43,063 nucleotides of DNA. Source: Alphaproteobacteria bacterium (GTDB taxonomy: Bacteria > Pseudomonadota > Alphaproteobacteria > Reyranellales > Reyranellaceae). The stretch lies in the NCBI GenBank assembly GCA_019239835.1, contig JAFAZJ010000307.1, positions 1-43,063 of the forward strand, in the 5' to 3' direction. This document shows positions 15,709 to 36,620 of the stretch, in pieces. The notes beneath the pieces were generated by a model. That model did no database searches and was not told where the DNA came from. It saw only the letters and a program-made list of their open reading frames with translations. The position numbers were made by a program, and so were the translations under genes. Numbering within the stretch: the stretch's first letter is position 1; each line of letters begins with the position of its first letter.

Positions 15709-16917
15709 TCAGGGTGACGCGTAACGGCTCAGCAGCAGGCGCGCCGGCTTGTCCTTCTCGCGGATCTCGCGCAGCACGACGGCGCCGCCGTCGGCCAGCG
15801 CCGCAACCTCGAGCGAGCCCGGCAGCTCGAGCCGCCAGCGCACGACGCCATCGGGCGCCAGCGCCAGCAACAACCTCTTCTTGTCGGGCTCGGATGCCTC
15901 GGAGACGAAGATGGCGTTCGCGCCATGGCGCACGATCTGCGAGCAAGCGCGCAGGCCGGTGTCGATGCGGTGGGAAATGCCCCGGCCGATCTCATGCCAG
16001 AGGATCTCCGTCTTCACGTTGCGCTGCAGCTTGACGTCGTAGTCGGACGCGCCACGAACATGGCTGCGCGGCCCGATCAGCACGGCGCAGGCGAAGAACT
16101 GCGCGACATCCTCGAGCCTGATGTTCTCCACCGTACGGCCGTCGGCGGCGATGCGGCGGAAGGTCGGCATCTCCGGTCCGTTCTCGGCGTCGATCATCAA
16201 CACCGAGGCGCCACCATCGGGCAGCGCCCAGCCGTCCTCGGCAAGATCGGGGAACCCCTTGGAGCCTTGTTCCCACAGAAGTTTGCCCACCCTGTCGTAG
16301 CGCGCGTACCACCATTGTGGTGGGCCGAAATAGTGCGTACCGAGCGCCAACAACGAGCCGTCGGCGAGTGGCGTCAGCTTCACCGCCGAGCGCACCACCA
16401 TCCGAGCGGCAGAGCCTGCCAGCTGGCGGCGGGGATTGGCGACCGCGATCTCCATGCCGCCGTTGCGGTTAAGCCCCACGATGCGACTGACGCCCTGATC
16501 TACGTCGTCGCGCGTCGACCAGGACTGGAACACCCAGGTGCGCGCCGGATCGCTTGCGTCGATCGCCGCCGAGAGCATACGGGCGGTCTTGTTGTTGCCG
16601 CCCGGCACAGCGAGCTTGCGCGTCCACAGATCCTTGCCAGTGCCGTCGAGAGCGACGACGCGCAACGCCTCGAGCGTGTCGGTCCGCCCCTTGCGCCCCT
16701 CGACGGCGGCGATCACCACTCCTCCGTCGGGCCGCGCCACCATGCGCAACACGCCGTAGGCCGCATCGTTGAGCAGGTCCTCGGGCTCGACCGACGGCAA
16801 TTCGATCGGTCGTTCCCACACGAGCCTCGGCGCGGGGGCGTCCTGCGCGAAGGCGACGGTCGGTGCCAGGAGAGCCAGCACCACTACCTTCCCCCGGAGG
16901 GGGAAGGTGGCGCGCAT
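15709..16917 (-). CDS. secreted beta-propeller-like hypothetical protein
   Basis: Preferred start MRATFPLRGKVVVLALLAPTVAFAQDAPAP gives a plausible signal peptide. Repeated WD/PQQ-like blades (VVALDGTGKDLWTRKL, YDRVGKLLWEQGSKG, LALAPDGVVRWRLELPG). The longer ORF to 17034 would translate a palindromic repeat. Confidence 0.7.
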   Translation of the reverse strand: MRATFPLRGKVVVLALLAPTVAFAQDAPAPRLVWERPIELPSVEPEDLLNDAAYGVLRMVARPDGGVVIAAVEGRKGRTDTLEALRVVALDGTGKDLWTRKLAVPGGNNKTARMLSAAIDASDPARTWVFQSWSTRDDVDQGVSRIVGLNRNGGMEIAVANPRRQLAGSAARMVVRSAVKLTPLADGSLLALGTHYFGPPQWWYARYDRVGKLLWEQGSKGFPDLAEDGWALPDGGASVLMIDAENGPEMPTFRRIAADGRTVENIRLEDVAQFFACAVLIGPRSHVRGASDYDVKLQRNVKTEILWHEIGRGISHRIDTGLRACSQIVRHGANAIFVSEASEPDKKRLLLALAPDGVVRWRLELPGSLEVAALADGGAVVLREIREKDKPARLLLSRYASP

Positions 16918-17014
16918 AGCGCGACGGATGAGGGAAGTCGAAGACGAACGTCGGAGTCCGGCTTCGACATCCCCCATCCGCCCTTCGGGCACCTTCCCCC
17001 TCCGGGAGAAGGTA
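16885..17014. repeat. compound inverted (REP-like) palindromic element
   Basis: Left arm TACCTTCCCCCGGAGGGGGAAGGTGGCGCGCATAGCGCGACGGATGAGGGA and right arm (reverse complement) TACCTTCTCCCGGAGGGGGAAGGTGCCCGAAGGGCGGATGGGGGA; arms contain internal hairpins; centre also inverted (GTCGAAG...CTTCGAC). Confidence 0.85.
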
Positions 17015-17026
17015 AACGACAGGAGC

Positions 17027-32902: not shown

Positions 32903-34564
32903 ATGCGCATGCGTGCCGATCTGCTCGCCGGGCTGTCGATCGCCGGCCTCCTGCTGCCGGAGGCGGTGGCCTATGCCGGCATCGCCGGCCTCGGCCCGCA
33001 GCACGCCATTCTCGCCGCCATCGCCGGTGCGCTGACCTACGCCCTGCTCGGCCGCAGCCGCTTCGCCGTCGTCGCGCCGACCTCCTCATCGGCGGCGATC
33101 CTCGCTGCGACCCTGGCCACGCTGCCGGGCGACGAGACGAGCAAGCTCGTCCACGCAACGGTGACAGTCGCGCTGACCGGCGTCGCGTTCCTCGCGGCTT
33201 CGCTGGCGCGGCTGGGCGGCCTCACCGGCTTCGTCTCGCGCCCGGTGCTGCGCGGCTTCGCCTTCGGGCTGGCGATCACCATCATCCTCAAGCAATTGCC
33301 GGCGCTGGTCGGCCTGCCCATCGAATCCGCCGGTTTGTACGGCCTGGTGCGGACGCTGCTGAGCGATCTGCCGCGCTGGCACGGCGCCAGCCTCGCCACC
33401 GGCATCGTGGCGCTTGCCGCACTGCTGGCGTTGCGTCGGCTGCCCTGGCTGCCCGGTGCCTTCATCGTCGTGGTCGGCGGCATCGTCGCGTCGTTGCTGC
33501 TCGATCTGCCCGGCCACGGCGTCGCCGTGGTTGGCACGCTCAAGCTCGACTGGCCGCATCTCGCATGGCCTGACATGCCGTGGTCGAGCCTGGCGCGGCT
33601 GGCGCAGTTCACCCTCCCCCTGGCGCTAATCCTGCTGGCGGAGAGCTGGGGTACCATGCGCGCGCTGGCGCTGCGCCACGGCGACTCACTGGAGCCCAAC
33701 CGCGAGCTGCTGGCGCTGGGCGGCGCCAATCTCGCATCGGCGCTGGTGCAGGGCCTGCCCGTGGGCGCCGGCTTCTCCGCCGGCCAGGCGAGCGCGGCCG
33801 CGGGCACCCAGACGCGCGCCGCTGCCGTGTTCGCTGCGCTGGGCATGGCGGTGCTGGTGGCCGTGGCGGCGCGCTACGTGGCGGCCCTGCCGCATCCGGT
33901 GCTGGCCGCCGTGGTGATCGCCGCGCTCAGCCATGCGCTCGATCCGCGCCCGCTGCTACGCCTGTGGCGGCTGCGGCGCGACCACGAGGTGGCGCTGCTT
34001 TCGGTGCTGGGCGTGCTGGTGCTGGGCGTGCTCGACGGCATGCTGGGCGCCATCGTGCTGTCGATCGCGGTGCTGATCCGCCGCATGTCGGTGCCACGCA
34101 TCTCGCGCCTGGGCCGGCTGCGCGAGGGCCACGACTTCGTCGATGTCGTGCGTCATCCCGATGCGCGCGAGATCGATGGCCTGATGATCCTGCGGCCATC
34201 CGTGCCGCTGTTCTTCGCCAACGCCGAACGCGTACTGTCGCAGATCGACGCCGACACCATGCACGTCCCGACTCCGCGAGTCGTGATCGTCAGCCTCGAA
34301 GACAGCTTCGACCTCGACAGCACCGCGCTCGATGCGCTGCTGGAGCTCGATGCCCGCCTGAAGGCACGCGGCACGCGACTGGTGCTGGCCCGCGTCCACG
34401 ACGAGCTACGCGATCTCCTGGCGAAGGTCGGCGCCACCGACCTGCTGACAAACTGCGCCTTCAGCGTCGACGACGCCGTCGCGCTGGCTGCTACTCCCTC
34501 TCCCCGCTCGCGGGGAGAGGGTCGGGGTGAGGGGTTCGTCGAGCTTCACGGGCGATCACAATGA
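32903..34564 (+). CDS. SulP-family anion transporter with STAS domain
   Basis: LLAGLSIAGLLLPEAVAYAGIAGL; multiple TM segments; C-terminal STAS (VVIVSLEDSFDLDSTALDALLELDARLKARGTRLVLARVHDELRDLLAKVG). Terminal TPSPRSRGEGRGEG is encoded by a repeat. Confidence 0.93.
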   Translation: MRMRADLLAGLSIAGLLLPEAVAYAGIAGLGPQHAILAAIAGALTYALLGRSRFAVVAPTSSSAAILAATLATLPGDETSKLVHATVTVALTGVAFLAASLARLGGLTGFVSRPVLRGFAFGLAITIILKQLPALVGLPIESAGLYGLVRTLLSDLPRWHGASLATGIVALAALLALRRLPWLPGAFIVVVGGIVASLLLDLPGHGVAVVGTLKLDWPHLAWPDMPWSSLARLAQFTLPLALILLAESWGTMRALALRHGDSLEPNRELLALGGANLASALVQGLPVGAGFSAGQASAAAGTQTRAAAVFAALGMAVLVAVAARYVAALPHPVLAAVVIAALSHALDPRPLLRLWRLRRDHEVALLSVLGVLVLGVLDGMLGAIVLSIAVLIRRMSVPRISRLGRLREGHDFVDVVRHPDAREIDGLMILRPSVPLFFANAERVLSQIDADTMHVPTPRVVIVSLEDSFDLDSTALDALLELDARLKARGTRLVLARVHDELRDLLAKVGATDLLTNCAFSVDDAVALAATPSPRSRGEGRGEGFVELHGRSQ

Positions 34565-34774
34565 GCGCGCCCTCGGCGTTGGTCAGGACTTCATTGTTCC
34601 AGAGCCGCAAGACACGGTAGCCGGCCTCGATCATCGCGGCATCACGCCTTTCGTCGTAGGCGTTGTCCGGGCGCGAAGGGCCGACCAGAGGACGCGTTCA
34701 GCATCCGTGGAGTCGCGACGTAGTCGCCGCGATTTGGTGGTGCGTCTTGGATGGGCGCCGCGAAGGACACGCAT
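34491..34774 (-). pseudogene. DUF559 (endonuclease-like) gene remnant with internal deletion/frameshift
   Basis: Hand translation: MRVLRGAHPRRTTKSRRLRRDSTDAERVLWSALRAR | (junction ~34667, frame change) | DNAYDERRDAAMIEAGYRVLRLWNNEVLTNAEGALIVIAREARRTPHPDPLPASGERE*. N- and C-terminal family motifs present, central core missing. Confidence 0.8.
34493..34534. repeat. REP-like palindrome copy A (42 bp), tail facing the DUF559 remnant
   Basis: ACTCCCTCTCCCCGCTCGCGGGGAGAGGGTCGGGGTGAGGGG; perfect 12-bp stem CCCTCTCCCCGC/GCGGGGAGAGGG at 34496-34521. Confidence 0.92.
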
Positions 34775-34840
34775 AGCGCGATCATGCACGGCTCACACAT
34801 TACTTCTATATATCAGCGGTTGTGCGTCACTTGGGGGCGA

Positions 34841-34882
34841 CCCCTCACCCCGACCCTCTCCCCGCAAGCGGGGAGAGGGAGT
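34841..34882. repeat. REP-like palindrome copy B (42 bp), inverted relative to copy A
   Basis: CCCCTCACCCCGACCCTCTCCCCGCAAGCGGGGAGAGGGAGT; reverse complement matches copy A at 41/42 positions. Confidence 0.92.
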
Positions 34883-36620
34883 GGGAAGCGTCACGGTTTG
34901 AGCGGTGGTAGTCATCCCACAACGTGGCGTAGGTCAGGCATGAGGTGAGCAGGTCTTCGTGCGTGCCCTCGCCTACTACGCGTCCCTCGTCCATCACCAG
35001 GATGCGGTCGGCGTCCATGGTGGCGGTCAGGTGGTGTGTCACCAGAAGGACGAGTCGATCCTTGCCCAGGGCGGCGAGGTTGCGTTCCAGCGCCAGGGCT
35101 GCTTCGGGATCGAGGAAGGCCGTCGGCTCGTCGAGGATCAGGAACGGCGGGTCGCGGTAGAGCGCGCGTGCGACGATCAGGCGCTGGCGTTGGCCGCCGG
35201 AAAGATTGCGGGCGCCTTCCTGAATGACGGTACCGAGTCTGTTCGGCAGCGCTTCGACAAAGCGGCGGGCGCCGGAGGCGTCGAGCGCGCGCCAGACGCG
35301 GCTGTCATCGCCATCCAGGCCGCTGGTGACGTTCTCGCGCACCGTGCCGATGAACAGCGCGGAGTCCTGGTTGACGATGCCGAATTGCCGGCGCAGCCAG
35401 CGCGGCGTGTAGTCGAGCACGTCATGGCCGGCGACGCGGGCGATGCCCTGGAAATCGCGCTGCAGGCCCAGGAACGTGCGCACCAGCGACGACTTGCCCG
35501 AGCCATTGCGGCCGACAATGGCGAACAAGCCATGCGCCGGGAACGCGAAGGTCACGTCCTTCAGCGCCGGTACCGGGTTGCCGGGATAGAACAGGGTCAG
35601 GTTCTCGGCCTCCAGACCAGCGCTGCCCAGACGCTGGCGTGGCGGCACGCCGGTCGAGCGCTCGATCGGCGCGGTGAGGATGTCGGCGAGATGGGCGATG
35701 CCGACATCGGCCTCCTGGTACTGCGCATAGGCCTGCGAGGCCGACAGTACCGGTGCCATGACGCGCGCGGCCAGCAGCTGCATCGCCAGCAGCTCGCCCA
35801 CCGTCAGCTGGTTGTGGAACACGCGGTAGCAGCCGATGCACAGCACGACGACCGCCAGCGCGCGCGACGCCGCCTGGCTGCCGACCTGGAAGCGACGCGA
35901 CAGCCGGTTGACGACGCGGAACGCCGCAATCGCGTTCTCGGTCAGCGCCGCCCAGCGCACGAAGCGCGCGCCCTCCATCGCCTGCGCCTTGATCGTCGCC
36001 ATCTCGGTGATGGTCTCGGCGACGACGGCCTGGCGCTCGCCCTCGACCGTCTGCAGCGCCCGCGCGGCCCGGCGCGCCTGCTTGCGCTGGCGGGCCAGCA
36101 TGACGCCCAGCGCTGAGGCGATCGAGGCGGAGACCAGCGAGATCGTCCAGTCGTAGTACGCCATGATACCCAACGCGACGAGCGAGCTGCCGGCGTCGAG
36201 GCTCAGAGGCGGCACGGTCGAGAGCATGAAGCCGCGAATGCGCTGGATCTGGCCGAGCCGGTTGAGTGTCTCGCCCGGCGACAGGCGTTCGGCGTCGAGC
36301 CGCGCTCGAAGCAGATGCAGCGACATCACGCGATAGACGCGCCGGTCGAAGAGCTCGGCCAGTCGGATCAGGAAGCGCTGGCGCAGCGCCGAGAACGAAG
36401 CCTCTCCCACCACCGCCAGCAAGGCGGCGGCGCCCAGCCAGACCAGCCCGACGCTCGCGGTCTTGCCGATGATGCTGTCGATCGCCTGCTGCATCAGGAT
36501 CGGCACCGACGCCGCCATGGCATAGATCACCAAGGTCGCGACGAAGACGCCGGCGACGTCGCCCTTGCGCAACAGAAAGGTTCGCGCGGCCCAACCCCAG
36601 TCGAAACGCCGCGACGGCAT
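34845..36620 (-). CDS. ABC exporter, fused permease/ATPase (bacteriocin/toxin-exporter-like, no peptidase domain)
   Basis: TM domain followed by GRNGSGKSSLVRTFLG (Walker A), NLSGGQRQRLIVARAL signature, FLILDEPTAFLDP Walker B. C-terminal SHSLSPLAGRGSG and the stop are encoded by repeat copy B. Confidence 0.92.
   Translation of the reverse strand: MPSRRFDWGWAARTFLLRKGDVAGVFVATLVIYAMAASVPILMQQAIDSIIGKTASVGLVWLGAAALLAVVGEASFSALRQRFLIRLAELFDRRVYRVMSLHLLRARLDAERLSPGETLNRLGQIQRIRGFMLSTVPPLSLDAGSSLVALGIMAYYDWTISLVSASIASALGVMLARQRKQARRAARALQTVEGERQAVVAETITEMATIKAQAMEGARFVRWAALTENAIAAFRVVNRLSRRFQVGSQAASRALAVVVLCIGCYRVFHNQLTVGELLAMQLLAARVMAPVLSASQAYAQYQEADVGIAHLADILTAPIERSTGVPPRQRLGSAGLEAENLTLFYPGNPVPALKDVTFAFPAHGLFAIVGRNGSGKSSLVRTFLGLQRDFQGIARVAGHDVLDYTPRWLRRQFGIVNQDSALFIGTVRENVTSGLDGDDSRVWRALDASGARRFVEALPNRLGTVIQEGARNLSGGQRQRLIVARALYRDPPFLILDEPTAFLDPEAALALERNLAALGKDRLVLLVTHHLTATMDADRILVMDEGRVVGEGTHEDLLTSCLTYATLWDDYHRSNRDASHSLSPLAGRGSG

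Follow-up and report, generated by a model that had tools for sequence, protein, structure and literature searches.

The DNA analyzed here (the window) is a stretch of 43,063 nucleotides, positions 1 to 43,063 of contig JAFAZJ010000307.1 in the Reyranellaceae draft genome GCA_019239835.1. In its aroA-valS interval (32903-36620), SulP-like and ABC-transporter genes lie on either side of a short unit with the following features.

34493..34535, plus strand: left triplex-motif repeat, outer end on the left, assigned from single-strand folding and from the mirror relation of arm2 and third arm
Parts of the left repeat: arm1 34496-34507, arm2 34510-34521, linker TCG 34522-34524, inward-directed third arm GGGTGAGGGG 34525-34534
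34548..34664, minus strand: DUF559 (PF04480) remnant, HMM positions 68-106, C-terminal part
34667..34668, minus strand: site at which 112 nt are missing compared with the intact homologous unit G011:C4:86189-86720
34668..34813, minus strand: 5' part of the DUF559 gene, decayed and out of frame, with homology to the G011 copies
34814..34839, no strand: subterminal sequence including GTGCGTCACTTG (34822-34833), common to gene-less doublets elsewhere in G000, G011 and G016
34840..34882, minus strand: right triplex-motif repeat, inverted copy (98%), linker likewise TCG, tail inward

The two repeats are 43 nt each, 98% complementary and separated by 304 nt. In both, a 2-nt loop caps a perfect 12-bp stem (34854-34865/34868-34879 for the right-hand stem), the G-rich tail is directed inward, and the single-strand fold is stable (z -2.6 and z -4.4). 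The tetranucleotide GTAG is absent from both. Between them, the remnant scored 29.5 bits against PF04480 in one profile search and 31.8 in another; its intact relatives score 133-149 bits, and the curated cut-off is 20.6. The copy lacks all residues N-terminal of HMM position 68 and its reading frame is not intact, with 4 stops in the frame tried over 34540-34810. The closest intact unit (G011:C4:86189-86720) belongs to another genome of the same genus; the sequences flanking the gap are 80% and 74% identical. As 112 nt is not a multiple of 3, the deletion shifts the frame and the DUF559 copy is dead. Judged from this alignment, it is an internally deleted relic. A sequence-only reading of this DNA had already described inverted palindromes with 12-bp stems and inward tails around a decayed minus-strand DUF559 gene, and had taken that gene for such a relic; all these points were confirmed.

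In G011, the unit stands alone between an aroA-like and a valS-like end. Because the SulP and ABC-transporter genes separate the window unit from these G011 neighbours, no clean empty site was obtained for the window locus and another locus was used. The SulP-like and ABC-transporter genes have predicted C-termini that extend into the repeats (34493-34564 and 34845-34900; e.g. ...PSPRSRGEGRGEG and ...SLSPLAGRGSG), an indication that gene ends can be altered by repeats. A coding function for such TM-derived tails (PSPLTPLPRGERG and similar) was rejected, the tails being repeat read-through.

Relation of the repeat to triplex-forming motifs

The window repeat consists of three arms (CCCTCTCCCCGC/GCGGGGAGAGGG/TCG/GGGTGAGGGG), that is, a hairpin and a third purine arm that mirrors arm2 across a 3-nt linker. 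An arm1-arm2 hairpin with a third purine arm, a CCCTC/GAGGG core and a 3-nt linker are also the features of the intrastrand triplex motif TM/TMECO (Holder et al., 2015; PMC4666352), earlier described as the PIT motif (Hoyne et al., 2000). TMECO is intergenic, is present in 23 copies in E. coli K-12, is tied to instability and forms a triplex in vitro according to CD and NMR; its authors could link it neither to a mobile element nor to a function of the flanking genes nor to a mechanism, and DUF559 and endonucleases go unmentioned in their main text (PMC4666352). The window repeat misses the literal TMECO pattern, which requires a first loop of 3-6 nt between 9-nt arms. Its 12-bp stem corresponds to an 8-nt loop between 9-nt arms, which makes it a relative of TMECO and not TMECO itself. 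Unlike the known motifs, the repeat is here the end of a DUF559 unit and comes in many further arm classes, several of which have an extra small hairpin within the linker.

The mirror relation was analyzed in 124 C-rich hairpins located beside DUF559 genes. The third arm matched the mirror of arm2 of its own repeat at 0.921, compared with 0.823 for other loci (sd 0.007; maximum of 5,000 permutations 0.847). When arms are asymmetric, mirror order beats direct order 55:9 (p=3.5e-9), as in the pairs GGGGGAAGG with GGATGGGGG and GGGGGAGGA with AGGTGGGGG. As comparative evidence, this mirror covariation newly supports selection on triplex-type symmetry; it does not demonstrate that a triplex forms in the cell. 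We conclude that the repeats flanking DUF559 genes belong to the class II intrastrand-triplex motifs of the PIT/TMECO type, with covariation as the only support here for triplex formation.

Pairing of DUF559 genes with inverted repeats

Inverted palindromes bracket 3/3 DUF559 loci of the source draft genome, two of which are intact and have other repeat classes. Brackets were found at 28/31 DUF559 genes in a Reyranellaceae sample; the control was 117 shifted windows (median score 11.5, maximum 23), since unrelated genes have repeat families in common and a cross-locus flank control was unusable. In a wider set from this family, 69/74 genes were bracketed. A Pseudomonadota sample reached a score of at least 18 at 14/29 DUF559 genes vs 1/116 shifted windows. 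The same score was reached at 54/74 named loci (alpha-, beta-, gamma- and deltaproteobacteria, Nitrospirae, Planctomycetes, Chloroflexi, Gastranaerophilales, Omnitrophota and others) vs 11/10,359 windows of the same contigs. True Vsr genes had no brackets (0/27), compared with 13/29 DUF559 genes sampled identically. Outside Reyranellaceae, no clear inverted pair was seen at about a quarter to half of the DUF559 genes. Chance or composition as the cause of the association was rejected with control windows, reversed-pattern controls and the Vsr genes. The sequence-only reading had cautioned that the link rested on one locus; this caveat is overcome by the family set and the named loci, the positional association is strong in the samples above, and the pairing of gene and repeat in these genomes is firmly supported.

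Two individual loci are described here. In Neisseria gonorrhoeae (L194), inverted CTCTCCCTGTGGGAGAGAG...AGAGAGAGGG repeats lie on both sides of the relative of NGO0050 (PDB 3hrl), a protein that is solved but uncharacterised. In Sinorhizobium sp. K101 (L195), an inverted doublet of GATCTCCCCC..GGGGGAGAT-type palindromes follows the DUF559 gene on one side only.

DUF559/YcjD is, to our knowledge, a widespread nuclease family without a known physiological substrate. A structure model of one member (pLDDT 92) matched NGO0050 (PDB 3hrl), the homing endonuclease I-Bth0305I (Foldseek E 4e-5) and Vsr; the nuclease is predicted to have a YcjD/Vsr-like PD-(D/E)XK fold. The sequence-only reading had called the family Vsr/restriction-like. 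Active-site-type residues (E18, D47, E58, D60, Q63, H64 and D71) are invariant in the intact members aligned, and PADLOC returned only weak defence or homing-endonuclease matches. By family, by these residues and by a fold near Vsr and I-Bth0305I, the enzyme belongs with NGO0050 and with Caulobacter VsrA. The DUF559 fold is also matched by several mitochondrial ribosome proteins of Toxoplasma and Tetrahymena (PDB 9i05, 9g6k and 6z1p). No literature connecting DUF559, YcjD or COG2852 to repeats was found, subscription papers and preprints being outside the search.

Repeat classes, copy number and variation of the units

On the protein tree of Reyranellaceae DUF559, the repeat class changes 6 times (minimum 5; 24.2 when shuffled; 0/200), although at least 2 repeat classes are present in 14 genomes. 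In the loci used for the mirror analysis, the arm class is identical at both ends in 32/49 vs 4.3 expected. The match between clade and class alone could be passive, because a gene and its linked ends are inherited together, and copy number was tested separately. Among 199 Pseudomonadota, at least 5 copies of the TM core were present in 27/57 genomes with DUF559 vs 8/142 without (p=4e-11), and the dependence survives permutation within families (p=1e-4), the only level at which phylogenetic dependence was controlled. In 60 Reyranellaceae genomes, repeat number correlated with DUF559 (Spearman rho 0.62). The dependence is class-specific in 51 Reyranella genomes: class-1 repeats track class-1 DUF559 (p=1e-5) and not class-2 (p=0.88), and class-2 repeats track class-2 DUF559 (p=0.001) and only weakly class-1 (p=0.04). 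Several TM-rich genomes had no DUF559 match (G232, 76 copies; G092, 34; G114, 28; G109, 17), and G007 has 47 class-2 repeats while the class-2 enzyme is missing. These comparisons show that repeat types are specific to DUF559 branches and that the copy number of a type follows the branch to which it belongs. Neither outcome that the sequence-only reading had named as refuting was observed, be it a lack of positional association with DUF559 genes or equal abundance in relatives without them.

REP-type dispersal by Y1/RAYT tyrosine transposases, with DUF559 genes as passengers, was also considered. In the order, 33/61 genomes encode Y1 transposases, and these genomes have somewhat more repeats (p=0.006). 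However, genomes without a Y1 hit are still rich in repeats if they have DUF559 (median 24, maximum 163) and poor if they do not (median 7), and the window repeat lacks the GTAG tag. RAYT-driven dispersal was rejected on these Y1-less copy numbers, and we give this explanation almost no credence.

A passive association has a little more in its favor but is disfavoured and, in our view, improbable. It would make DUF559 a house-keeping mismatch-repair or restriction enzyme, near which palindromes accumulate as terminators, buffers or fragile sites. Caulobacter VsrA contains DUF559, affects the SOS response and has been proposed as a mismatch-repair enzyme (PMC12907096), which sets it apart from the role considered here, and the repeats are intergenic everywhere (PMC4666352). 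Against this stand the missing brackets at Vsr genes and their rarity in the windows of the same contigs. Moreover, brackets are matched in class to enzyme clades across different loci, copy number follows too, and DUF559 has a patchy distribution with clean losses.

The core of the window repeat occurs in 15 copies in the draft genome and its reversed form in 0, which excludes chance. Five inverted doublets of this core were found, with match starts 68-72 nt apart. A doublet of another class was found as follows.

16885..17018, no strand: gene-less doublet, class 4 (GGGGGAAGG type with extra hairpin), subterminal GTCGAAG..CTTCGAC

It folds as a very stable long hairpin (z -10), and its subterminal GTCGAAG also lies beside the intact class-4 DUF559 gene of the same genome (L001). 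Gene-less inverted doublets in G000, G011 and G016 have the subterminal GTGCGTCAC in common with the unit that bears the gene, at its right end, and the window subterminal stretch is up to 90% identical to such doublets. Since doublets and units have this sequence in common, the doublets look like internally deleted units.

Differing linkers have been noted for five E. coli TMECO pairs (Holder et al., PMC4666352). Likewise, the two ends of DUF559 doublets nearly always combine different linker types, and class 2 has identical linkers in 1/40 vs 8.2 expected. The differences comprise 74 transitions vs 9 transversions; these doublet counts all rest on pairs copied by hand from the doublets listed. 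CTA is paired with TTG and TTA with TCG (doublets in G005, G007, G012, G035, G000, G011 and G016). Linker type showed no fixed polarity with respect to the orientation of the gene. As the linkers are related by transitions, T-G mismatches would arise in the folded-back strand.

Clean empty sites, absent for the window locus, were found at another orthologous site. It carries the unit in G005 and G059, and the unit with a further repeat in G008. G024 has a single repeat there, which combines the left half of the first repeat with the right half of the last. A degenerate solo repeat occupies the site in G006 and G007, and the site is empty in G004, G009, G017, G019, G028, G031 and G050. No target-site duplication was present at this resolved empty site, which distinguishes the DUF559 unit from a DDE transposon or MITE. 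The states in G024 and G008 are compatible with insertion into a repeat or with recombination out of one.

They are also what the main rival explanation, homing, would draw on. Here the repeats spread by other means, and a homing-type DUF559 enzyme cuts gene-less repeats or doublets and its gene is copied into them; the repeats would then be landing sites, which would explain the position of the gene between them. The nearest solved folds are those of I-Bth0305I and Vsr, PADLOC gave its weak homing-endonuclease matches, and in addition to the extra repeat beside the G008 unit and the half-and-half repeat of G024, a composite unit exists at G011:C2. Homing into pre-existing repeats is not excluded by the empty-site data. 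EDxHD homing endonucleases (I-Bth0305I) resemble DUF559 in fold and mobile-gene life style; in contrast, DUF559 was not seen in introns or inteins here and is bracketed by multi-copy intergenic palindromes. On the other hand, repeats are few in genomes that lack DUF559, their number follows the enzyme class that matches them, and the subterminal sequence common to doublets and units is as expected of internal deletions. We consider homing unlikely on balance, though a serious contender.

Proposed mechanism and related systems

Our favored interpretation, which we hold to be rather probable, is that the window feature is a decayed copy of a two-part system: a DUF559 nuclease gene and its own inverted triplex-forming repeats, with cutting and spreading by the nuclease being inferred. 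The comparisons establish the pairing, the clade-class match, the copy-number dependence, the shortened doublets, gain and loss of units, and mirror covariation of arm2 and arm3. That DUF559 spreads its repeats is a candidate explanation of them, neither movement nor cleavage having been observed.

One point against it is that PD-(D/E)XK nucleases are not known to carry out strand transfer themselves. The nuclease would recognise the folded repeat (hairpin, possibly triplex) in exposed single strands such as the lagging-strand template or a cruciform, and would nick or cut at its edge. A new intergenic site could then receive a copy of the excised or displaced unit or doublet through repair synthesis or annealing, with no target duplication. 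The short doublets that lack a gene may be the non-autonomous form, moved in trans in a REPIN-like manner.

The reference system for comparison is the REPtron, or REPIN-RAYT (TnpA-REP; PMC3116915, PMC3733652). In both systems, a small nuclease or transposase gene has a dispersed palindrome on each side, in inverted orientation, inverted doublets some 100-130 nt long that form long hairpins are also dispersed, enzymes and repeats fall into cognate classes, locations are intergenic, and target-site duplication is absent. The RAYT/REPIN parallel drawn in the sequence-only reading therefore holds for architecture, cognate pairing and doublets. The differences are in the enzyme, which is a PD-(D/E)XK Vsr-like nuclease instead of a Y1 HUH transposase, and in the repeat, which has a third mirror-symmetric arm and no GTAG tag. 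A further difference from the REPtron is that one genome has several full units with their gene, and that these are polymorphic from species to species. A REPtron-like system with a Vsr/homing-type nuclease in place of the tyrosine transposase is the best reading of these data, cleavage and movement again being inferred.

T-G mismatches are the substrate of true Vsr enzymes. A more far-reaching proposal, which we can only offer tentatively, is a new class of mobile repeat system in which a Vsr-like nuclease reads a fold (the triplex hairpin) and perhaps T-G mismatches, YcjD being responsible for PIT/TMECO. If the T-G part were true, mismatch-repair chemistry would have been turned into, or derived from, repeat dispersal. 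We know of no enzyme, origin or mechanism for the PIT/TMECO repeats, known for more than 20 years as abundant and unstable. The link to DUF559 gives the nuclease family and these repeats each a testable partner, and would show that enzyme-dedicated dispersal of palindromic repeats arose outside HUH transposases as well.

The idea is testable in E. coli, since K-12 has ycjD and about 23 motifs (PMC4666352). YcjD of E. coli K-12 is a DUF559 member. The E. coli control genome of our family search gave no PF04480 match, though K-12 MG1655 carries ycjD; the strain or the search may miss the gene, and enterobacterial absences need care. In MG1655, ycjD (L196, 1351204-1351760) lies between sapF and fabI, and its 3' side has one triplex motif as well as degenerate ones. 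Matches covering at least 80% of the sapF-ycjD-motif query stretch were found in 3361/5426 E. coli genomes, and in the ycjD-less lineages examined the ycjD site is occupied by the eef efflux operon (PMC12817139).
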